A stretch of 64,000 bases of DNA from Rhodobacterales bacterium (GTDB taxonomy: Bacteria > Pseudomonadota > Alphaproteobacteria > Rhodobacterales > Rhodobacteraceae). The notes below the pieces were generated by a model. That model did not search any database. It was not told the origin of the DNA and saw only the letters and a program-made list of their open reading frames with translations. The DNA lies in NCBI GenBank assembly GCA_003249215.1, contig QKJR01000097.1, forward strand, positions 62,001 through 126,000. Direction: 5' to 3'. Position 1 is the stretch's first letter. Every line of letters begins with the position of its first letter. The position numbers and the translations under genes were made by a program. Shown here one piece after another: positions 1-9,800 of the stretch.

Positions 1-2
1 CC

Positions 3-209
3 CATTCGGTCTTCGAATCGGTCTTCCTGTCGGACCGGATCGTCGTCATGGCGGCGCGGCCCGGGCGCGTCTCGGCCGAGTTGCAGGTGGATGAACCCTA
101 TCCCCGCTCCGAGGACTTCCGCACCTCGGCGCGCTATGCCGAGCTCTGTCACATGACCTCGGACGCGCTGCATGTGGCGATGGGCGAGCATCAGGAGGCC
201 GCCGAATGA
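3..209 (+). CDS. ABC transporter ATP-binding protein, C-terminal fragment
   Basis: The window opens inside this gene and only the last 68 residues are present. The first in-frame codon is a His followed by Ser-Val, matching the switch (H-loop) histidine of ABC ATPases, and the next stretch FLSDRIVVMAARPGR is the usual segment after it. The family hydrolyses ATP to drive solute import. The stop overlaps the permease start (ATGA, 206-209), so the two are translationally coupled. By the permease type it belongs to the NitT/TauT-like class; the substrate-binding protein is probably upstream of the window. Confidence 0.85.
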   Translation, partial: HSVFESVFLSDRIVVMAARPGRVSAELQVDEPYPRSEDFRTSARYAELCHMTSDALHVAMGEHQEAAE

Positions 210-1054
210 GCGCAGCCCCCGCAAAACCCATCCTCGACGAGGAAGAGGCCCGCCTCGCCCGCGCCCGGCGCATCGACCGGATCGGCAAATGGGCGATGCC
301 GGCGCTCATGCTGATCGTGGCGGTGATCGTCTGGGACCGGATCGTGGTGATCAACGAGATCCCGAAATACATCCTGCCGCGGCCCGGTCTCGTGGTGGAG
401 ACGCTTATCAACGACTTTGGCACACTCTCCGCCTCGGCCGTGGTGACGATGCAGATCACGCTGATGGCTCTGGCCGTGGCGGTGATCGGCGGCGTGGGGT
501 TGGCCGTCTTCTTTGCGCAGAGCCGCTTCTTCGAGATGGCCTTCTATCCCTTCGCGGTGATCCTGCAGGTGACGCCGGTGGTGTCGATTGCACCGCTCAT
601 CTTCATCTATGTCGACAACCGGCTGGTGGGGCTTCTCCTCTGCGCCTGGATCGTGGCCTTCTTCCCGATCCTGTCGAACACTACGCTCGGCCTGAATTCC
701 ACCGACCACAACCTGCGCGACCTCTATCGCATCTATGGCGCGACGCGCTGGCAGCGGCTGCGCTATCTGCAACTGCCGACCGCGCTCCCGTATTTCCTCG
801 GCGGTCTGCGCATCGCCGGCGGACTCAGCCTGATCGGCGCGGTGGTCGCGGAATATGTCGCGGGCACCGGCGGCATCGGATCGGGCCTTGCCTTCCGCAT
901 CCTCGAGGCCGGATACCGGCTCAACATCGCGCGGATGTTCGCGGCCCTTCTTCTGATCGCGGCGCTCGGCGTCGTGATTTTCGCAGCCACATCGCTTCTC
1001 AGCCACCTTCTGCTGCGCAAATGGCATGAGAGCGCGATCAAACGGGAGATTTGA
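206..1054 (+). CDS. ABC transporter permease, NitT/TauT (SsuC-like) type
   Basis: A 282-residue inner-membrane protein with about six hydrophobic segments after a polar, charged N-terminus. The cytoplasmic EAA-type loop is visible as IYGATRWQRLRYLQLPTALP in the second half, the site that contacts the ATPase. Length and layout fit the BPD_transp_1 permeases of nitrate, taurine, sulfonate and pyrimidine importers. The start ATG overlaps the ATPase stop, and the TGA at 1052-1054 overlaps the next ATG. It presumably brings in the substrate that the downstream hydrolases and oxidases act on. The substrate cannot be read from the sequence. Confidence 0.9.
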   Translation: MSAAPAKPILDEEEARLARARRIDRIGKWAMPALMLIVAVIVWDRIVVINEIPKYILPRPGLVVETLINDFGTLSASAVVTMQITLMALAVAVIGGVGLAVFFAQSRFFEMAFYPFAVILQVTPVVSIAPLIFIYVDNRLVGLLLCAWIVAFFPILSNTTLGLNSTDHNLRDLYRIYGATRWQRLRYLQLPTALPYFLGGLRIAGGLSLIGAVVAEYVAGTGGIGSGLAFRILEAGYRLNIARMFAALLLIAALGVVIFAATSLLSHLLLRKWHESAIKREI

Positions 1055-2322
1055 TGGATTTTTGCGTTCTGCCCAGCGGCGCAAAGACTTTGACAAACCT
1101 GCGTGTCCCCGCCTGCCTCATCGGCCAACCCGGCGATCTCGCGCAAATTTCTCTCTCCCTCGACAATGGCACGATCGCGGCCGCCCCCACGCCGGGCGCG
1201 CCCACGATCGACATGGGCGGCGCGATGGTCTTGCCCTGTTTCGTCGACATGCATTGCCACCTCGACAAGGGCCATATCTGGCCCCGCGCTGCCAACCCCG
1301 ATGGCACCTTCATGGGCGCGCTGACGACGGTCGGCGCCGATCGCGCCGCGAACTGGTCGGCGGCGGATGTCGCCGCGCGGATGGAGTTTTCCCTGCGCTG
1401 CGCCTATGCCCACGGCACCCGCGCGATCCGCACGCATCTCGACAGCCTCGCGCCGCAAGATGCGATCTCCTTCCCGGTCTTCGCCGAGATGCGCGAGAAA
1501 TGGGCGGGGAGGATCGAGCTGCAAGGCTCCTGCCTCGTCGCCGCCGACAACATCACCACCGATGGGTTCTTCGCTGAAACCGCGCGGATCGTCGCCGCCT
1601 CGGGTGGGGTTCTGGGCGCGGTGACCTACCCGATCCCGGATCTGCGCGCGCGACTGATGACCTTCTTCGACTTCGCCGACAAATACGATCTCGAGGTCGA
1701 TTTCCACGTCGACGAGACGAACGACCCGGCCTCGGACACTTTGCGGATCATCGCCGAGGTGGTGTTGGAGCGTGGTTTCACGCGGCGCGTCACCGTCGGC
1801 CACTGCTGCTCGATTTCCGTGATGCCCGAACCCACGGCGGCCTCGATCATCAACAAGGTGGCGCGCGCAGGGCTCAATGTCGTCAGCCTGCCGATGTGCA
1901 ACCTGTATCTGCAAGACCGCACGCCGGGCCGCACCCCGCGTTGGCGCGGCGTGACCATGGTGCACGAGCTGGCCGCCGCGGGCGTCAACGTGAGCTTCGC
2001 CTCCGACAACACGCGCGACCCGTTCTATGCCTATGGCGATCTCGACATGATCGAGGTGATGCGCGAGGCGACGCGGATCTGTCACCTCGACCACACGCAT
2101 GAAGACTGGCCCCACGCCTTCCTGACGAACCCGGCCAAGGCGATGGGCATCGCCGCGCCCAGCCTCGCCCCCGGCGCGCCCGCCGATCTGGTGATCTGCC
2201 GCGCGCGGGGCTGGACCGAGCTCTTCGCCCGCCCGCAATCCGACCGGATCGTGATCCGCGCGGGCGAGGCGATCGACCGGACCTTGCCCGATTATTCCGA
2301 ACTTGACCCCCTGATGGACTGA
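1054..2322 (+). CDS. CodA-like amidohydrolase (cytosine deaminase family)
   Basis: A 422-residue TIM-barrel amidohydrolase that lines up with E. coli cytosine deaminase along its length. Metal and catalytic residues are present: H67 and H69 (DMHCHLDKG), H218 and E221 (FHVDET), H250 (VGHCC) and D318 (SDNTRDP). CodA's second Asp at the last site is Asn here (N319), and the pyrimidine-binding Gln of its FPQEG motif is replaced (Ala163 by my alignment). The substrate is therefore probably a related heterocycle rather than cytosine. I chose the ATG at 1054, which overlaps the permease stop, over the TTG three bases upstream. The enzyme should be cytoplasmic. Confidence 0.85.
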   Translation: MDFCVLPSGAKTLTNLRVPACLIGQPGDLAQISLSLDNGTIAAAPTPGAPTIDMGGAMVLPCFVDMHCHLDKGHIWPRAANPDGTFMGALTTVGADRAANWSAADVAARMEFSLRCAYAHGTRAIRTHLDSLAPQDAISFPVFAEMREKWAGRIELQGSCLVAADNITTDGFFAETARIVAASGGVLGAVTYPIPDLRARLMTFFDFADKYDLEVDFHVDETNDPASDTLRIIAEVVLERGFTRRVTVGHCCSISVMPEPTAASIINKVARAGLNVVSLPMCNLYLQDRTPGRTPRWRGVTMVHELAAAGVNVSFASDNTRDPFYAYGDLDMIEVMREATRICHLDHTHEDWPHAFLTNPAKAMGIAAPSLAPGAPADLVICRARGWTELFARPQSDRIVIRAGEAIDRTLPDYSELDPLMD

Positions 2323-2325
2323 GCC

Positions 2326-3738
2326 ATGACCCCGAACATCGCCGCCGCCAAAGCCGCCCTCGCCCATATCGAGATGGACGAAAGCCCCACCACCATCCGC
2401 AACAAGAGCCGCGATTTCTTCTGGTATTCGCCGATCCTCAAGGCCCGGCTCGACCACCTCGAGGCCGATTTCGTGGTCAACCCCGTCTCCGAGGCCGAGG
2501 TGATCGAGATCCTGAAAACCTGTTACGAACATGACGTGCCGGTCACCGTGCGCGGCGCGGGCACCGGGAACTACGGTCAGGCGATGCCCTTGGCCGGCGG
2601 CTGCCTGATCCACATGGCGCGGTTCAACAAGGTGAAGGAGGTTTACCCCGGCCGGGTGATCGCCGAGCCGGGATGCGTGATCAAGGATCTGGACGCCGAA
2701 TGCCGCGCCGCCTCGGGGCAGGAGCTGCGGATGATGCCCTCGACCGCCGCGACCGCGACCATTGGCGGCTTCATCGCCGGCGGTTCGGGCGGGGTTGGCA
2801 GCTGCACTTGGGGCGCGCTGCGCGATCTGGGCAATATCATCCGGCTGCGGGTGATCACCATGGAGGCCGAGCCGCGGGTGCTCGAATTCCGCGGCGAGGA
2901 GCTGCACCGCGTCAGCCATGCCTATGGCACCAATGGCGTCATTACCGAGATCGAGATGCCGCTGGCGCCCGCCTATGACTGGGTGGACCTGTTCGTGGCG
3001 TTCGAGAGCTTCCCCGAGGCCGCCGCCTATGCCGCGGGGCTTGCGAACGAAGACGGCATCCTGATCAAGCTCGCCTCGGTCTATGAGGCACCGATGGCCC
3101 ATGCCTATTTCCAGCGCGTCAAACCTCATGTGACCGAGGCCGACCATCTGGTGGGCCTGATGGTCGCGCCCCATTCGATGGACGGGTTCGAGACCTTCAC
3201 CGCGCGGCACCCGGGTGCGCGGGTGATCTATCGCTCGGATGCCTCGACATGGGAGCGCACCCCGGGCCCGGTCTTCGAGCATGGCTGGAACCACACCACT
3301 TTGCGCGCGCTGAAATTCGATCCCTCGATCACCTATCTCCAGGTCCGCTACCGCTTCCCCGATCATCTGGAGCTGGTCGAGAAGGTCCGCGCGACCTTTG
3401 GTGCCGAGGTGCTGCAACACCTCGAAGTCATGCGCGAGAACGGCAAGGTCATGTTCGCGGGCCTGCCCTTGGTCAGCTACACCAGTGACGAACGGCTCGA
3501 GGAGATCGTGCGGATGCACGAGGAGATGGGCTGCATGATCTTCAACCCGCATCGCTACACTTTGGAGGAGGGCGGGCGACAGGCGCACGATCAGCGCCAG
3601 CTCGACTTCAAGCGCGAGGCCGATCCCAAGGGGCTGCTCAATCCCGGCAAGATGATCACCTGGGACGAGCCCGATTTCGATTATTCCGACATCTACGCCT
3701 ACAAGGGCATGCGCCCGGCGCCCGAGGCCGCGGAATGA
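2326..3738 (+). CDS. FAD-binding oxidoreductase (VAO/PCMH fold)
   Basis: A 470-residue protein of the GlcD-like FAD_binding_4 group. The FAD pyrophosphate region is visible as VRGAGTGNYGQAMPLAGG near residue 75, followed by STAATATIGGFIAGGSGG and a later GTNGVITEIE. The C-terminus DPKGLLNPGK is typical of flavin oxidases and dehydrogenases of this fold. It would oxidise a C-H or C-N bond of the pathway substrate. It starts three bases after the amidohydrolase stop and overlaps the next gene by four bases. No signal peptide is visible, so it is cytoplasmic. The substrate is unknown. Confidence 0.85.
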   Translation: MTPNIAAAKAALAHIEMDESPTTIRNKSRDFFWYSPILKARLDHLEADFVVNPVSEAEVIEILKTCYEHDVPVTVRGAGTGNYGQAMPLAGGCLIHMARFNKVKEVYPGRVIAEPGCVIKDLDAECRAASGQELRMMPSTAATATIGGFIAGGSGGVGSCTWGALRDLGNIIRLRVITMEAEPRVLEFRGEELHRVSHAYGTNGVITEIEMPLAPAYDWVDLFVAFESFPEAAAYAAGLANEDGILIKLASVYEAPMAHAYFQRVKPHVTEADHLVGLMVAPHSMDGFETFTARHPGARVIYRSDASTWERTPGPVFEHGWNHTTLRALKFDPSITYLQVRYRFPDHLELVEKVRATFGAEVLQHLEVMRENGKVMFAGLPLVSYTSDERLEEIVRMHEEMGCMIFNPHRYTLEEGGRQAHDQRQLDFKREADPKGLLNPGKMITWDEPDFDYSDIYAYKGMRPAPEAAE

Positions 3739-4316
3739 CCCGCGCCCTTGTCCTTTTCGCCCATCCGGTGCCCGACAGCTTCAACGCCGCCGTGCATCGC
3801 ACCGTGGTCGAGACGCTCACCGCCCGCGGCTGGGAGGTCGACGATTGCGACCTCAATGCCGAAGGCTTCTATCCCGTCCTGACCGAGGCCGAGCGGCGCG
3901 GCTATCACGACACGCCCGAGAACCTCGAACCGGTCCGCGGTTATGTCGAACGGCTGCAACGCGCCGAGGCGCTAGTGATGGTCTTTCCGGTCTGGAATTT
4001 CGGCTATCCGGCGATCCTCAAGGGCTTCATCGACCGGGTCTTCCTGCCCGATGTCAGCTTCCGCCTCGTGGATGGCAAGGTTCGCCCGGGCCTCACCAAC
4101 ATCAAGAAACTCGCCGCCTGCACGACCTATGGCGGCACGCGGATGCGCGCCATGATGACCGGCGATCCGCCGCGCAAATGCGTGACCCGGCATATCTGGT
4201 ATGCCTGCGGGCGTCCGGCGCAGAAATATGTGGCGCTCTATGATATGAACCGTAACGAGGCGCCGCAGCTCAATGCGCACCTCGCGCGGGTCAAACGGGA
4301 AATGGAGGCGCTCTGA
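3735..4316 (+). CDS. NAD(P)H dehydrogenase, flavodoxin-fold (first of two)
   Basis: A 193-residue Flavodoxin_2 (NQO1/MdaB-like) protein. The N-terminal LFAHPVPDSFNAA is the FMN/FAD phosphate-binding start of the family, and FPVWNFGYPAILKGFIDRVF is its second flavin-contact motif. Such enzymes pass two electrons from NAD(P)H to quinones or electron-poor ring systems. The gene overlaps the FAD oxidase by four bases and sits one base upstream of a paralogue. In this operon it may reduce a heterocyclic intermediate or keep a redox partner reduced; that role is an inference. Confidence 0.85.
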   Translation: MTRALVLFAHPVPDSFNAAVHRTVVETLTARGWEVDDCDLNAEGFYPVLTEAERRGYHDTPENLEPVRGYVERLQRAEALVMVFPVWNFGYPAILKGFIDRVFLPDVSFRLVDGKVRPGLTNIKKLAACTTYGGTRMRAMMTGDPPRKCVTRHIWYACGRPAQKYVALYDMNRNEAPQLNAHLARVKREMEAL

Positions 4317-4317
4317 G

Positions 4318-4965
4318 ATGCGCGCATTGGTGATCTATTGCCACCCCCGCGAGGGCAGCTTCAACGCGGCGATCCGCGATCTGGTACTTGAACGGCTGCG
4401 GGCGGCTGGCGCCGAGATCCGGCTCTCGGACCTCTACGCCCGCGGCTTCGATCCGGTGATGTCGGCGACCGACCACGAGACCTATGAACAGGTCCCCGAG
4501 AACCGCCGGATGATCGAGGAAGACTGCGCCAATCTCGAATGGTGCAACACGCTGATCTTCGTCTATCCGACCTGGTGGTATGGCCTGCCCGCGATGCTGA
4601 AAGGGTGGCTCGACCGGGTTCTGGTGCCTGACGTGGCCTTCATCATGCCGCGCGCCGACGGCGAGACGATCCGCCCCGGCCTGACCCATATCGGCAAGCT
4701 CGGGGTTTTCACCACCTGCGGCGCGAGCTGGTGGCTGACCACCTTCGTCGGCGCGCCGGGGCGGCGCACGCTGCTCCGCGGCCTGCGGCTGATTTTGGGC
4801 AAGCGGGTGCGCACCGCCTTCGCCGCCCATTACCTGATGGACAGCTCGACCCCCGAAAGCCGGGCGAAACACCTGGCGCGGGTGCGGGCGCGGCTCGACA
4901 GGCTGATCGCGGCGCCCATGCCCAACCTCGCGCCGAGCCCCGTCATGACCGAAAGGCAGGCGTGA
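4318..4965 (+). CDS. NAD(P)H dehydrogenase, flavodoxin-fold (second of two)
   Basis: A 215-residue paralogue of the preceding gene, with the same two landmarks: YCHPREGSFNAA at the start and YPTWWYGLPAMLKGWLDRV near residue 82. The start at 4318 follows the previous stop by one base. The longer ORF opening at 4273 would run back into the neighbour in another frame. The C-terminal part differs from its partner, so the pair could form a heterodimer or act on different intermediates. The TGA overlaps the ATG of the oxygenase gene. Confidence 0.87.
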   Translation: MRALVIYCHPREGSFNAAIRDLVLERLRAAGAEIRLSDLYARGFDPVMSATDHETYEQVPENRRMIEEDCANLEWCNTLIFVYPTWWYGLPAMLKGWLDRVLVPDVAFIMPRADGETIRPGLTHIGKLGVFTTCGASWWLTTFVGAPGRRTLLRGLRLILGKRVRTAFAAHYLMDSSTPESRAKHLARVRARLDRLIAAPMPNLAPSPVMTERQA

Positions 4966-5885
4966 TGATCCCCGTCCTCGACTGGAGCCGCTTTGCCGCG
5001 GGCACCGACCCCGAGGGGTTCGTATCGGACCTCAGCCATGCCTGCCGCGACACCGGCTTCTTCCTGCTCGCCCACCACGGCGTGCCCGAGGCCCTGATCG
5101 CTGACGTGTTCGCGATGGGGGACGCCTTCTTCGCGCAGCCGGCTAGCGGAAAGCGCCCCCTCGATATCCGCCGCAACCCGCACAACCGCGGCTGGGCCGC
5201 CGAGGGCAGCGAGGCGCTCGACGAGACAAGCGGCGTGATGGACCGCAAGGAGGCGTTCAACGTCGGCTTCGACCTGCCCGCGACCGACCCGCGCGTGATC
5301 GCGGGCGAGATGTTTCGCGGCGTGAACGTCTGGCCCGAGATCGCGGGGTTCCGCGAGACGATGCTGCTTTACTACGACACCGTCCTCAATCTCGGCCGCG
5401 CGCTGCACCGCGCCTTCGAGGCAGATCTTGGCCTGCCCGAAAGCTATTTCGAGCCGCATTTCACCGAACCGATGGCGACGCTGCGGGTGCTCAGCTATCC
5501 GGCCAATCCGTCGGGCGAGGGGATCGGCGCCGGGGCGCATAGCGATTATGGCTCGGTCACGCTGCTGATGACCGATGGCGTCGCGGGATTGCAGGTGAAA
5601 CCCCGCGGCGGAGACTGGACCGACGTGCCGCATGTGCCGGGCGCCTTCGTCGTCAATATCGGCGATTGCCTGATGCGCTGGTCGAACGACATCTATGTCT
5701 CGACCCCGCATCGCGTGCTGCCGCCAAAGGCCCCTCGCCGCTCGATCGCCTTCTTCCTCGACCCGAACCCCGACAGCCGGATCGAGGCCTTACCTGGCAC
5801 CGGCGCGCCGAAATACGCGCCGATCTCGGGCGCCGATTACCTGCGCTCGCGCCTTGATGCGACCTATAGCCCGGAGACGACATGA
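4965..5885 (+). CDS. Isopenicillin N synthase-like Fe(II) (2OG) oxygenase
   Basis: A 306-residue protein with the DIOX_N region first (IPVLDWSRF, then FFLLAHHGVP) and a jelly-roll catalytic domain. The iron ligands are visible: H192 and D194 (AHSDYGS) and H249 (STPHRV). The R258-x-S260 pair normally binds 2-oxoglutarate. It would hydroxylate, desaturate or ring-modify a small molecule using O2. The ATG at 4965 overlaps the upstream stop, and the last four bases overlap the creatininase start. No secondary-metabolite genes are nearby, so a catabolic role with its operon partners is more likely than beta-lactam synthesis. Confidence 0.85.
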   Translation: MIPVLDWSRFAAGTDPEGFVSDLSHACRDTGFFLLAHHGVPEALIADVFAMGDAFFAQPASGKRPLDIRRNPHNRGWAAEGSEALDETSGVMDRKEAFNVGFDLPATDPRVIAGEMFRGVNVWPEIAGFRETMLLYYDTVLNLGRALHRAFEADLGLPESYFEPHFTEPMATLRVLSYPANPSGEGIGAGAHSDYGSVTLLMTDGVAGLQVKPRGGDWTDVPHVPGAFVVNIGDCLMRWSNDIYVSTPHRVLPPKAPRRSIAFFLDPNPDSRIEALPGTGAPKYAPISGADYLRSRLDATYSPETT

Positions 5886-6679
5886 GACGCCTCGACTGGG
5901 CGCAATACCGCGCCCCCGAATTCGCCACGATGGACCCCACGCGCACCATCGCGATCCTGCCCACCGCGGCCATCGAGCAGCACGGGCCGCATCTGCCCGT
6001 GGGCACCGATACGATGATCGCCGAGGGGATGCTGGCCGAGCTGCGCCGCACCTGCCCGGACGATCTCGATATCCTGATCCTGCCGGTGCAGGCGGTCGGC
6101 AAGTCGAACGAGCATATCCACGCCGCGGGCACGCTGACGCTGAGTGCGGAGAACGCGCTCCGGGTCTGGACCGAGATCGGCCTCTCGGTCGCGCGCGCGG
6201 GGCTGCGCAAGATCGTCATCATGAACAGCCACGGCGGCAACCTCGACCTGATCTCGATCCTGTCGCGCGAGCTGCGGGTGCGGGCGGGGATGCAGGCGGT
6301 GAAATGCCAATGGGGCAATTTCGGCGTGCCCGAGGGGATCTATTCCGCGCAGGAGCGGACTTACGGCATCCACGGCGGCGATCTGGAAACCTCGCTGATG
6401 CTGCAGTTCCGCCCCGAGACGGTGGATATGGCGCAGGCGCGCGATTTCCGATCCACCGCCGAGAGCGCGCCGATCCCGCCCACCGGGCCGATTTCGCTCG
6501 GCTGGATTTCCAGCGATCTCAATCCCGCCGGCACCGTGGGCGAGGCGCATCTGGCCACGGCCGAAAAGGGGGCGGCCACCTGCGCGCATCAGGTCGCGGG
6601 GCTGATCGGCCTCTTGCGGCAATTGCGTGAGCTGCCCCTCGACGGCTATGAACCGACCCAGCCCGATCTGATGCTCTAG
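5882..6679 (+). CDS. Creatininase-family amidohydrolase
   Basis: A 265-residue protein with the metal-binding signature EQHGPHLPVGTD (E32, H34, D43), the NSHGGN motif near residue 118 and GIHGGDLETSLML carrying the later metal-ligand Glu. Known members open cyclic amides (creatinine) or remove formyl groups (ArfB in archaeal flavin/F420 synthesis), and MftE is a peptidase. Placed last in an overlapping operon with a CodA-like deaminase, it is a plausible ring-opening or deformylating step. The substrate is not evident. The gene ends the operon core; the following 57 bases carry a fresh ribosome-binding site for the next gene. Confidence 0.87.
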   Translation: MRRLDWAQYRAPEFATMDPTRTIAILPTAAIEQHGPHLPVGTDTMIAEGMLAELRRTCPDDLDILILPVQAVGKSNEHIHAAGTLTLSAENALRVWTEIGLSVARAGLRKIVIMNSHGGNLDLISILSRELRVRAGMQAVKCQWGNFGVPEGIYSAQERTYGIHGGDLETSLMLQFRPETVDMAQARDFRSTAESAPIPPTGPISLGWISSDLNPAGTVGEAHLATAEKGAATCAHQVAGLIGLLRQLRELPLDGYEPTQPDLML

Positions 6680-6736: not shown

Positions 6737-7963
6737 ATGACCGATCCTACCTTCGATGCCTTCGTGATCGATGGTGCCCGCGTGGTGCTTGACGACCGGA
6801 TTGCCGAGGTCTCGGTTCTGGTCGAGGGCGGGCGGATCAAGGGGCTCGATCTGGCCAGCGACGCGCCGCGGATCGAGGCGCGCGGGATGCTCCTTGCGCC
6901 GGCGCTGATCGACATCCACGGCGATGCCTTCGAGCGGCAGCTGATGCCGCGCCCCGGTGTCATGCTGCCGACCGAGGCGGCGCTGCTCGAGACCGATCGG
7001 CAACTGGCGGCAAACGGGATCGCAACGGCCTATCACGCGCTGACGCTCAGCTGGGAGCCGGGCCTGCGCTCGGTCGAGATGGGCTGGGAGGTGTTCGAGA
7101 CGCTGAACCGTCTTGCCCCCCGCCTGACCGTCGAGAACCGCCTGCAACTGCGGTGGGAGACCTTTTGCTTCGAGGCGCTGCCGCTGATCGAGGCGGCGAT
7201 CGCGGGGCCGCTCGCCCCCGCCATCGCCTTCAACGACCACACCTCGATGTCGATGCGCGCGCCCGGGATCGCGGTGCAGGATCGCCCGTTCGAGCACGAC
7301 CCCGCGTACCCGCTGATCGACCCCGACAGCGCCGAATTCGCGCGTCGCATGGTCGAACGCGCTCAACGTGCCAAGATCACGACCGAGGAGATGGTCGCAC
7401 TTGTTCGCCAGATCTGGACACGGCGTCCACATGTTATGGTCGAGATCGCCAAGGTCGCCGAATGGGGCCGTGCCGCGGGGCTGCCGATGCTCAGCCATGA
7501 CGACACCCAACCCGAAACGCGTGCGATCTATCGCGATCTTGGATCGCGGATCAGCGAATTTCCGATGAACCACCCGACCGCGCGGGCGGCGCGCGGGGCG
7601 GGAGATTTCATCGTCTTCGGCGCACCCAATGCCGCGCGCGGCGGCAGCCATCTGGGCAGCGCGGGCGCGGGTGAGATGCTGCGCGAGGGGCTCTGCGATA
7701 TCCTCGCCTCGGATTACTATTACCCGGCGATGCTGGCCGCGGTGGCGCGGCTCCATGCCGATGGGCTTGGCGATCTGCCCGCGCTCTGGCCCCTCGTTTC
7801 GACCAATCCGGCCCGCGCGCTCGGGCTGACGGACCGGGGGCGCATCGCCGAGGGGCTGCGCGCCGATCTCGTGCTGATCGACTGGCCCGAGGGCCATGCG
7901 CCGGCCGTGCGGCAAACCCTCGTCGCCGGACGCCCCGCCTATGCGGCGCAGCCGGCGGGCTGA
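6737..7963 (+). CDS. PhnM-like amidohydrolase
   Basis: A 408-residue protein resembling PhnM, which hydrolyses alpha-D-ribose 1-methylphosphonate 5-triphosphate in the C-P lyase pathway. The family hallmark is IDIHGDAFERQLMPRPGV at residues 58-75, with H61 and D63 at the metal site, and a later SHDDTQPE supplies more ligands. No other phn gene is in the window. A clear AAGGAGG site at 6725-6731 precedes the ATG. It may have been recruited for another substrate made by the operon upstream, or belong to a C-P lyase cluster elsewhere. Confidence 0.8.
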   Translation: MTDPTFDAFVIDGARVVLDDRIAEVSVLVEGGRIKGLDLASDAPRIEARGMLLAPALIDIHGDAFERQLMPRPGVMLPTEAALLETDRQLAANGIATAYHALTLSWEPGLRSVEMGWEVFETLNRLAPRLTVENRLQLRWETFCFEALPLIEAAIAGPLAPAIAFNDHTSMSMRAPGIAVQDRPFEHDPAYPLIDPDSAEFARRMVERAQRAKITTEEMVALVRQIWTRRPHVMVEIAKVAEWGRAAGLPMLSHDDTQPETRAIYRDLGSRISEFPMNHPTARAARGAGDFIVFGAPNAARGGSHLGSAGAGEMLREGLCDILASDYYYPAMLAAVARLHADGLGDLPALWPLVSTNPARALGLTDRGRIAEGLRADLVLIDWPEGHAPAVRQTLVAGRPAYAAQPAG

Positions 7964-7978: not shown

Positions 7979-9505
7979 TCAGTCGATGTCGAAGGTCACG
8001 CCCTGCGCCAGCGGCAACGCGCGCGAGAAGTTGATCGTGTTGGTTGCCCGCCGCATGTAGCTTTTCCACGCATCCGAGCCGCTCTCGCGCCCGCCGCCGG
8101 TCTCCTTCTCGCCGCCGAAGGCCCCGCCGATCTCGGCCCCCGAGGTGCCGATATTGACGTTGGCGATCCCGCAATCCGACCCTGCGGCCGAGAGAAACTG
8201 CTCCATCTCGCGCATGTCGAGGGTGAAGATCGACGAGCTGAGCCCCGCGCCCACCGCATTGTGGCTCTCGATCACCGCGTCGAAATCTTTGTAGCGCATG
8301 ACATAGAGGATGGGCGCGAAGGTTTCCTCGAGCACCGGGCCGCATTGCGCGGGCATCTCGACCAGCGCCGGGCGCACGTAATAGGCCGCGTTCGAGGCAA
8401 CCGCCTCGCGCGCGCCGCCATGCACGGTGCCACCCGCCTCGCGCGCCGCGCCCAGCGCCGCCTGCATCGCCTCGAAAGCCGCGGCGTCGATCAGCGGCCC
8501 GACGAGTGCCTGCGTTTCCAACGGGTTGCCGACCGAAACCTTGGCGTAGGCCGCGATCAGCCGCGGCACCAGCGCGTCATAAACGCTGTCATGCACGAAG
8601 AGCCGCCGCATCGTGGTGCAGCGCTGCCCGGCGGTGCCCATCGCCCCGAAGGCGACCGCGCGCAGCGTCATTTCAAGGTCCGCCGAGGGGCAGACGATGC
8701 CCGCATTGTTGCCACCGAGCTCGAGGATCGAGCGCCCGAACCGCGCCGCCACCTTGGGCCCGACGATCCGCCCCATCCGCGTCGAGCCGGTGGCCGAGAT
8801 CAGCGCGACTTCGGGGCTCTCGACCAGTGCGGCACCGATCTCCGGCCCGCCGATCAGCAGTTGCGCCAGATCCGCGGGCGCCTCCCCGAACCGCGCCAGC
8901 GCCCGCGCGAGCGTCGCCTGCGCGCCAAGCGCCGTCAGCGGCGTCTTCTCCGAGGGTTTCCAGAGCACCGGATTGCCGCAGACGAGCGCGAGCGCGGTGT
9001 TCCAGGCCCAGACCGCCACCGGGAAGTTGAAGGCCGAGATCACGCCGACCGGCCCGAGCGGGTGCCAGGTCTCCATCATCCGGTGGCCGGGTCGCTCGGT
9101 CGCGATGGTAAGCCCGTAAAGCTGCCGCGAGAGGCCGACCGCGAAATCGCAGATATCGATCATTTCCTGCACCTCGCCCGCGCCCTCGGACGGGCTCTTG
9201 CCGGCCTCGATCGACACCAGCCGCCCGAGCGCGGGCTTGGCCGCGCGCAATTCCTCGGCCCAGAGCCGGACGAGCTCGCCGCGCCGCGGGGCGGGCATGG
9301 TGCGCCAGATCTTGAAGGCGGTCTTGGCCCGGGCAATCGCCGCCGTCGCCCCCTCGACCGTGTCGGGCGTGAGCGCGCCGATCTGCTCGCCCGTCACCGG
9401 TGAGAAGCTCGCTATCGGCCCGCCCTCGAACCGCGCCGGGGCGACGCCGAGTGCGCTCAGCAATTTGCGGGTTTCGGGGATCAGCGAGAGGGGGGATTGC
9501 GTCAT
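7979..9505 (-). CDS. Aldehyde dehydrogenase, ALDH7 / piperideine-6-carboxylate dehydrogenase-like
   Basis: A 508-residue NAD-dependent aldehyde dehydrogenase. The ELGGNNAG motif and catalytic C296 in GQRCTT are visible, and the GGEKETGGGRESGSDAWK region near the end is typical of the ALDH7 (antiquitin/AmaB) branch. Members oxidise alpha-aminoadipate semialdehyde in lysine catabolism. I start at the ATG at 9505 because the ORF upstream of it is low-complexity read-through. It is convergent with the PhnM-like gene (15 bases between stops) and has no obvious operon partner, so the lysine role rests on family only. Confidence 0.88.
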   Translation of the reverse strand: MTQSPLSLIPETRKLLSALGVAPARFEGGPIASFSPVTGEQIGALTPDTVEGATAAIARAKTAFKIWRTMPAPRRGELVRLWAEELRAAKPALGRLVSIEAGKSPSEGAGEVQEMIDICDFAVGLSRQLYGLTIATERPGHRMMETWHPLGPVGVISAFNFPVAVWAWNTALALVCGNPVLWKPSEKTPLTALGAQATLARALARFGEAPADLAQLLIGGPEIGAALVESPEVALISATGSTRMGRIVGPKVAARFGRSILELGGNNAGIVCPSADLEMTLRAVAFGAMGTAGQRCTTMRRLFVHDSVYDALVPRLIAAYAKVSVGNPLETQALVGPLIDAAAFEAMQAALGAAREAGGTVHGGAREAVASNAAYYVRPALVEMPAQCGPVLEETFAPILYVMRYKDFDAVIESHNAVGAGLSSSIFTLDMREMEQFLSAAGSDCGIANVNIGTSGAEIGGAFGGEKETGGGRESGSDAWKSYMRRATNTINFSRALPLAQGVTFDID

Positions 9506-9620
9506 CGGGGGCTCCTGAAGTTTGCCAGACCCTAGCGCAGCGCTGCCGCGGGCGCAGCCGCGAAATCCGCCCCGGGGGCGGTGTCCTCGCGTCGGGCCCA
9601 GCTCCGGACCCGGCCGCGCA

Positions 9621-9800
9621 TCAAAAGTCGATGGCGATGCCCTTCTTCTCCCAATCGCCGAAGCGCACCGGTTCGGGGCCATCGCGCCCGCCGAGCTCGG
9701 TCGGCAGATCGGCGGCCTTGGCGGCGCGGCGGCGCGCCTCGGCCTCGGCCAGCGCGCGTTGTGCCGCAGGCGGCAGGTCCTTGGCGCTCTCTTCACTCAT
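9621..9800 (-). CDS. DUF1674 protein, SDHAF4-like succinate dehydrogenase assembly factor
   Basis: A small protein of 59 residues, easily missed by length cut-offs. After a basic, Ala-rich helix it ends with PEPVRFGDWEKKGIAIDF, the conserved C-terminus of DUF1674. The mitochondrial member SDHAF4 chaperones flavinylated succinate dehydrogenase subunit A, so a similar role is likely. It is divergent from the rsmB-like gene. A good minus-strand promoter lies at 9836-9864. The stop is the TGA read at 9623-9621. Confidence 0.87.
   Translation of the reverse strand: MSEESAKDLPPAAQRALAEAEARRRAAKAADLPTELGGRDGPEPVRFGDWEKKGIAIDF

Follow-up and report, generated by a model that had tools for sequence, protein, structure and literature searches.

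The DNA analysed here (hereafter the window) is a stretch of 64,000 nucleotides from a Rhodobacterales bacterium (assembly GCA_003249215.1, contig QKJR01000097.1, positions 62,001 to 126,000 of the forward strand). The eight plus-strand genes with which it begins belong to a real, co-conserved cassette that probably imports and breaks down the ring of folate-type vitamins; the set is widespread. Specifically, we read the cassette from its sequences as a self-contained system for uptake and catabolism of the pteridine part of folate, in the form of free pterins or folate fragments, and put the probability of this reading at roughly 0.57. We favor it because the flavin adenine dinucleotide (FAD) enzyme of the cassette, FADOX, is a close relative of a solved protein titled for folate catabolism (PDB 6v42), because the nearest relatives of 6v42 sit in the same gene neighborhood, because FADOX and an amidohydrolase, CODA, occur side by side in 46/46 genomes, because CODA combines a known fold with an apparently altered specificity, and because Variovorax offers a precedent. 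A weak kinship of the binding protein to the pyrimidine binders THI5 and ThiY, and RutR-type regulators in two diverged clusters, lend further support.

The original prediction, made from the letters of the window alone, described eight plus-strand genes in a row, almost all of them overlapping or within three bases of each other, and the coordinates, checked start codons and Pfam matches bear this out. All eight are present in the expected order, with overlaps of 1-4 bases or gaps of 1-3 bases. Start codons were checked at the junctions inside the window: the ATPase gene ends at 209 and the permease gene starts at 206; the permease/CODA (1054/1054) and FR2/OXY1 (4965/4965) junctions both have the form TGATG; and the others are 2322/2326 (CODA/FADOX), 3738/3735 (FADOX/FR1), 4316/4318 (FR1/FR2) and 5885/5882 (OXY1/CREAT). 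Each gene name is backed by Pfam (ABC_tran, BPD_transp_1, Amidohydro_3/1, FAD_binding_4, Flavodoxin_2 twice, DIOX_N with 2OG-FeII_Oxy, and Creatininase). The operon is longer than the window, which starts inside it so that the edge cuts the ATPase gene. The upstream part was read from the same contig as locus L008 (window coordinate = L008 coordinate minus 12001). A substrate-binding protein had been expected just upstream, and a gene of the NMT1/THI5 type was found there; the RidA-family gene lies outside the window and was hence absent from the predicted gene set. The features are listed below, where locus counts refer to 'complete loci', the 64 with enough flank among 80 named loci; these 80 are the best of 583 matches, so the set favors close relatives.

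L008:9725-10120, minus strand, divergent: RidA-family gene, outside the window; 54/64 loci.
L008:10360-11394, plus strand: binding protein of the NMT1/THI5 type (PF09084, 87.1 bits, cut-off 20.5), outside the window; 64/64 loci.
1..209, plus strand: ATP, 3' end of the gene for the ATPase of an ATP-binding cassette (ABC) importer; the whole gene is L008:11401-12210 and begins some 600 bases ahead of the window (PF00005, 2.7e-33 for the whole protein); 64/64 loci.
206..1054, plus strand: PERM, ABC importer permease of the NitT/TauT/Ssu type (PF00528, 3.9e-23); 64/64 loci.
1054..2322, plus strand: CODA, metal-dependent amidohydrolase matching the fold of E. coli CodA, with altered specificity; proposed pterin deaminase (NF005759, 613.9 bits); 64/64 loci.
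2326..3738, plus strand: FADOX, VAO-type FAD enzyme closely related to 6v42 by search and tree; proposed flavin oxygenase.
3735..4316, plus strand: FR1, flavodoxin-fold NAD(P)H oxidoreductase (PF02525, 4.8e-30); 61/64 loci.
4318..4965, plus strand: FR2, second flavodoxin-fold NAD(P)H oxidoreductase, related to NQO (PF02525, 1.9e-33; resembles quinone reductases among its PDB matches); 62/64 loci.
4965..5885, plus strand: OXY1, 2-oxoglutarate/Fe(II) oxygenase, an optional member (PF14226, PF03171); 36/64 loci.
5882..6679, plus strand: CREAT, creatininase-family hydrolase; proposed ring-opening step (PF02633, 5.9e-67); 56/64 loci.

A lack of co-conservation in other genomes would have spoken against the original prediction, but the genes are strongly co-conserved. 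Of the 292 genomes searched from the order, 46 have close relatives of FADOX (at least 64% identity), and a separate search of the 292 places close relatives of CODA (at least 59% identity) in 46 as well. The two sets of genomes are identical, with neither gene alone at the cut used, which was placed at a gap in the score lists after the lists had been viewed. In all 46 the two genes are neighbors on one strand, 5 to 152 bases apart (Fisher p 9e-55 for co-occurrence in the 292 genomes, a value that treats the genomes as unrelated). Outside the 46, FADOX is represented in another 27 genomes by a more distant relative only (36-49% identity), and CODA in 2 by a more distant relative (46-47% identity); within the 46, one genome (G212) has a second, lone copy of FADOX with no cassette around it (L069). 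The binding protein, ATPase, permease and CODA accompany FADOX in every complete locus, and clusters of neighboring genes beyond those of the cassette itself appear in at most 8 of the 81 loci compared.

The link to folate comes from FADOX. Its match to 6v42 has an E value of 1.6e-179 over residues 4-465, with 58% identity in the fold search, and the next solved relative follows at 2.6e-15. The entry is titled 'Crystal structure of the flavin oxygenase with cofactor bound involved in folate catabolism'. In an 81-row tree, where three long rows are of unsure place (L240, L072 and L073), 6v42 falls within a 10-row rhizobial branch (support 97/96). The loci behind all nine other rows of this branch contain CODA, FADOX, CREAT, RidA, the importer and one or more FR genes, and seven of the nine share 69-76% identity with 6v42. 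The protein of 6v42 and 6v43 (FAD/FMN-containing dehydrogenase) is thus a full-length relative of FADOX, and its nearest tree relatives stand in the same cassette; it differs in belonging to the rhizobial branch, whose examined loci have no OXY1 match. A structure model of FADOX is of middling quality (mean predicted local distance difference test score, 73.9). Because a solved relative at 58% identity is titled for folate catabolism, pterin or folate leads over pyrimidines, hydantoins and creatinine; pterins were among the rings suggested from the window, and it is the other three suggestions that fall behind.

CODA had been called a CodA-like amidohydrolase, and the likeness holds for the fold and metal ligands while failing for the substrate site. 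The residues of the CodA metal site (H61, H63, H214, H246, D313 and E217) are kept in 117/117 relatives of CODA, 107 of them distinct in sequence, some genomes being present in both locus sets. At the position of CodA Gln156, on the other hand, the relatives have Gly, Ala, Ser or others and in no case Gln, and throughout the 117 Asp314 is replaced by Asn, Phe316 by Arg and Trp319 by Phe. Gln156 and Asp314 are residues with which CodA reads its substrate. With the metal ligands kept and these residues replaced, CODA would hydrolyze a ring akin to, yet distinct from, the one on which CodA acts, and its identification as a cytosine deaminase is rejected. CODA does pass the model NF005759 (PRK07583), which is named cytosine deaminase, well above the cut-off of 403 bits; the name is an annotation and not the result of an assay, and for the members examined we consider it doubtful.

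Pterin deaminases that have been tested include Arad3529 and the Variovorax enzyme PDA. In older annotation, 'endoribonuclease' is by our own reading a name for RidA-type proteins. The pterin deaminase of Variovorax sp. F1 is an amidohydrolase that deaminates folic and pteroic acid, its gene is directly followed by one annotated 'endoribonuclease', and folic acid degradation in this strain combines carboxypeptidase G with the deaminase (PMC9513972). An amidohydrolase for the pterin half with such a gene downstream resembles the arrangement seen here. The text of PMC9513972 contains none of the terms FAD, creatininase, ABC transporter and gene cluster, and a carboxypeptidase G gene does not recur beside the cassette in the 81 loci.

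The remaining enzymes fit a pterin, as do CODA and the binding protein, without proving one. CREAT was correctly placed in the creatininase family, and the positions of creatininase E34, H36, D45, H120 and W154 are kept in 95/95 relatives (89 distinct), including four metal-site residues. In contrast to creatininase itself, all 95 have Gly at the position of Glu122, another metal ligand, and CREAT scores 83.7 bits with the creatininase model TIGR04448, far below the equivalog cut-off of 235. Given the missing Glu122 and the failed model, the substrate of CREAT is likely another cyclic amide; a creatinine pathway is rejected on the same two grounds. OXY1, described earlier as an oxygenase like isopenicillin N synthase, is indeed an oxygenase: the HxD...H iron triad and RxS motif, which mark a 2-oxoglutarate/Fe(II) site, are intact in 61/61 relatives (54 distinct), so that the site is complete. 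As its locus count shows, it is not an obligatory part of the set.

From these identities a possible route can be drawn. The importer would bring in a pterin or folate fragment. CODA would hydrolyze the 2-amino-4-oxopyrimidine half, removing the 2-amino group (pterin to lumazine type), and FADOX, acting as a flavin oxygenase, would attack the pteridine ring, with two-electron reductions supplied by FR1, FR2 or both, flavodoxin-fold reductases that depend on NAD(P)H. CREAT would then hydrolyze a cyclic amide or ureide and so open or trim the pyrimidine half, and RidA would clear away a reactive imine or enamine by hydrolysis. The 2-oxoglutarate oxygenases (OXY1, and the OXY2 and TauD-like proteins described below) would be interchangeable accessories; by trimming different side chains they may let several substrates enter the same core.

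A number of points weigh against assigning the cassette to folate. The gene content, order and conservation and the kinship of FADOX to 6v42 are observations, while the activities themselves are predicted. The connection to folate hangs on the PDB title of a relative, and at 58% identity the substrates of the two proteins could differ. The genome of 6v42 itself was not found among 385 genomes of the class or 146 of one genus, and the rhizobial branch that holds 6v42 joins the Rhodobacterales branch with modest support (85/78, compared with 99/94 for the wider branch that contains the two). The likeness of CODA to the Variovorax deaminase is one of description. Proteins of the NMT1 family bind many ligands. 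No folate-specific gene recurs beside the cassette in the 81 loci, and two of the proposed enzymes are missing from some complete loci (CREAT from 8/64 and RidA from 10/64).

Among other substrates, a monocyclic pyrimidine such as the pyrimidine of thiamine (hydroxymethylpyrimidine, HMP, or a formylamino relative) or a modified nucleobase is unlikely, although several features would suit it. Import would be ThiY-like, followed by deamination by CODA, side-chain oxidation by FADOX or OXY1 and opening by CREAT. The PDB relatives of the binding protein include 4h6d (THI5, 1.1e-7) and 3ix1 (ThiY, 1.9e-4), CODA has the CodA fold, thymine dioxygenase is among the better PDB matches of OXY1 (E 1.9e-38), and two related clusters have RutR-type regulators. 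However, the matches of the binding protein to THI5 and ThiY are weak (1.1e-7 to 5e-4), the CodA residues Gln156 and Asp314 are replaced in every relative of CODA, and the close solved relative of FADOX is titled for folate and not for pyrimidines. The regulators bring to mind the Rut pathway of pyrimidine use, which has a RidA-family protein, RutC, and a regulator, RutR. A pathway of the Rut type was rejected: the eight genes include no RutA-type monooxygenase, and the RidA protein of the cassette scores 25.7 bits, below the RutC cut-off of 169.1.

We consider another cyclic ureide or guanidine (a hydantoin, a creatinine-like or purine-derived compound, or a secondary compound of plant or marine origin) slightly less probable again. 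Creatininase-family and amidohydrolase folds generally act on such rings, and a diverged relative of CODA lies beside the cyanuric acid genes of pADP-1; against this, CREAT is far below the creatininase model and has no Glu122, FADOX has its folate-titled relative, and no feature of the cassette points to any one such substrate. It is very improbable that the cassette serves biosynthesis, or detoxification of a toxic pterin, an antifolate or a quinone-like metabolite, in place of nutrient use. NQO-type reductases and RidA proteins are often protective, and the distribution of the cassette in the order is patchy (46/292 genomes). On the other side, a dedicated importer of a high-affinity type heads the operon in all complete loci, which fits scavenging, and neither exporters nor biosynthetic genes are recurrent neighbors in the 81 loci.

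Taken as uptake and catabolism of a folate-derived pteridine, the cassette can be given a more ambitious interpretation, which we hold tentatively, at a little short of even odds: it would be a full bacterial route for breakdown of the folate pteridine ring in marine Rhodobacterales, rhizobia and other Proteobacteria, with three undescribed activities (pterin hydrolysis by a CodA-fold enzyme that at present bears the annotation cytosine deaminase, opening of the pyrimidine half by an enzyme of the creatininase fold, and oxygenation by a VAO-type flavin enzyme working with NQO-type reductases) and with exchangeable 2-oxoglutarate oxygenases that adapt the cassette to different folate or pterin side chains. 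A worked precedent with other enzymes is the lum cluster for catabolism of lumichrome and riboflavin, an operon that breaks a pteridine-like vitamin ring by hydrolysis of its pyrimidine half plus oxygenases (PMC12746152). It differs in its enzymes: a P450, LumH/I/M, a thiamine pyrophosphate decarboxylase, a Rieske dioxygenase and an enzyme of the xanthine oxidase type, with neither 'folate' nor 'creatininase' mentioned in the text of PMC12746152.

The overall interpretation offered from the window, a co-conserved cassette for uptake and degradation of a nitrogen heterocycle, is kept, with several enzyme labels corrected. Its authors knew of no described pathway with this set, and for the gene set as a pathway we likewise found no description in openly licensed PubMed Central (PMC) papers, which leave out most subscription journals. 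The depositors of 6v42 had, all the same, already tied the flavin enzyme to folate breakdown, so the folate idea is probably familiar to some in the field. Nearly every cell makes and uses folate. According to the introduction of PMC9513972, little has been described of the way in which its pteridine ring is turned back into simple nitrogen and carbon. If our reading is true, the cassette would be a missing route for breakdown of this ring, many Rhodobacterales and nearly all sampled genomes of one rhizobial genus could recycle folate or pterin nitrogen, and the name 'cytosine deaminase' would be corrected for a whole protein family. The interest of the cassette lies in its being common and compact and in lending itself to tests with a few purified proteins; it would belong among vitamin-catabolic operons.

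Related sets are found in rhizobia, and rearranged ones in beta- and gammaproteobacteria. FADOX relatives occur at E ≤ 1e-60 in 32/398 genomes drawn from the phylum, at E ≤ 1e-100 (with 6v42 as the query) in 17/385 drawn from the class and at E ≤ 1e-150 in 140/146 of the genus in the rhizobial branch; a plasmid collection of 72,556 records yields 141 matches, of which Rhizobium accounts for 109. Rhizobium johnstonii 3841, Agrobacterium and R. tumorigenes have a creatininase-family gene, a LysR gene, the importer, CODA, FADOX, one FR gene and RidA. Plasmids of Paroceanicella and Sulfitobacter have the full set including OXY1 (S. pontiacus is among the carriers of the cassette), and rearranged sets surround a more distant FADOX in Pantoea, a Comamonadaceae bacterium and Klebsiella. 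In a variant seen in six loci (L073, L076-L079 and L215), FADOX, CREAT and a CODA relative have as neighbors a TauD-like oxygenase and a binding protein of the peptide type. The core that recurs thus consists of CODA, FADOX, CREAT and mostly RidA; importers, reductases and oxygenases vary.

Further copies and neighbors were noted along the way. The same assembly (G000) has a second, partial copy of the cassette on contig C75 (L009, 6206 bases; 77% DNA identity to the copy in the window), with a different 2-oxoglutarate oxygenase, OXY2 (519-1514), the binding protein, ATPase, permease, CODA and the start of FADOX. Its G+C content is 0.646 compared with 0.671 around the window, and contamination of the assembly is put at 4.45%, so this copy may either be a genuine second operon or come from another strain. 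Oxygenases like OXY2 (70-73% identity to the C75 copy) adjoin the cassette at different positions in L056, L088, L132 and L154, so that OXY2 would be a further exchangeable oxygenase. Genes for a PaoABC-type aldehyde oxidoreductase, which could oxidize a ring aldehyde, lie a few kb from the cassette on plasmids of R. johnstonii (L080) and A. tumefaciens (L085). Tandem FADOX-like genes, three in L240 (G774) and two in L241 (G868), stand next to CODA, CREAT and the importer. The diverged CODA relative on the atrazine plasmid pADP-1 (L265:14815-16146) has the cyanuric acid operon, an importer of the BMP type and an insertion sequence as neighbors.

Possible control elements were also examined. 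The RutR-type TetR regulators (PF08362, YcdC-like) of the two diverged clusters are at L084:11957-12586 and L266:7193-7837. Between the RidA and binding-protein genes (L008:10120-10360), about 1.8 kb before the window, there is a palindrome, ATTTCTTGACCATACGGCCAAGAAAT, within which lies a near match to the RutR consensus (2 mismatches in 14). Scanned with this consensus, 12 of 85 intergenic regions have a RutR-like site (at most 3 mismatches) compared with about 0.5 in shuffles, the 85 including some genomes twice. Inverted repeats between these two genes show no clear overall excess over shuffles. Since most of the 85 regions have no such site and some genomes are counted twice, we make no regulatory claim. 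No known riboswitch or other Rfam RNA reached the gathering threshold in six loci.

Downstream, a gene at 6737-7963 starts 57 bases after CREAT and matches PhnM (NF011987, 362 bits, cut-off 253). It has no match in the other loci tested (L009 and L040-L167), and we therefore end the cassette at 6679; PhnM accompanies the copy in the window only and was rejected as a member. Convergent with it, on the minus strand at 7979-9796, is an aldehyde dehydrogenase gene that scores above the cut-off for L-piperidine-6-carboxylate dehydrogenase (791 compared with 730 bits).

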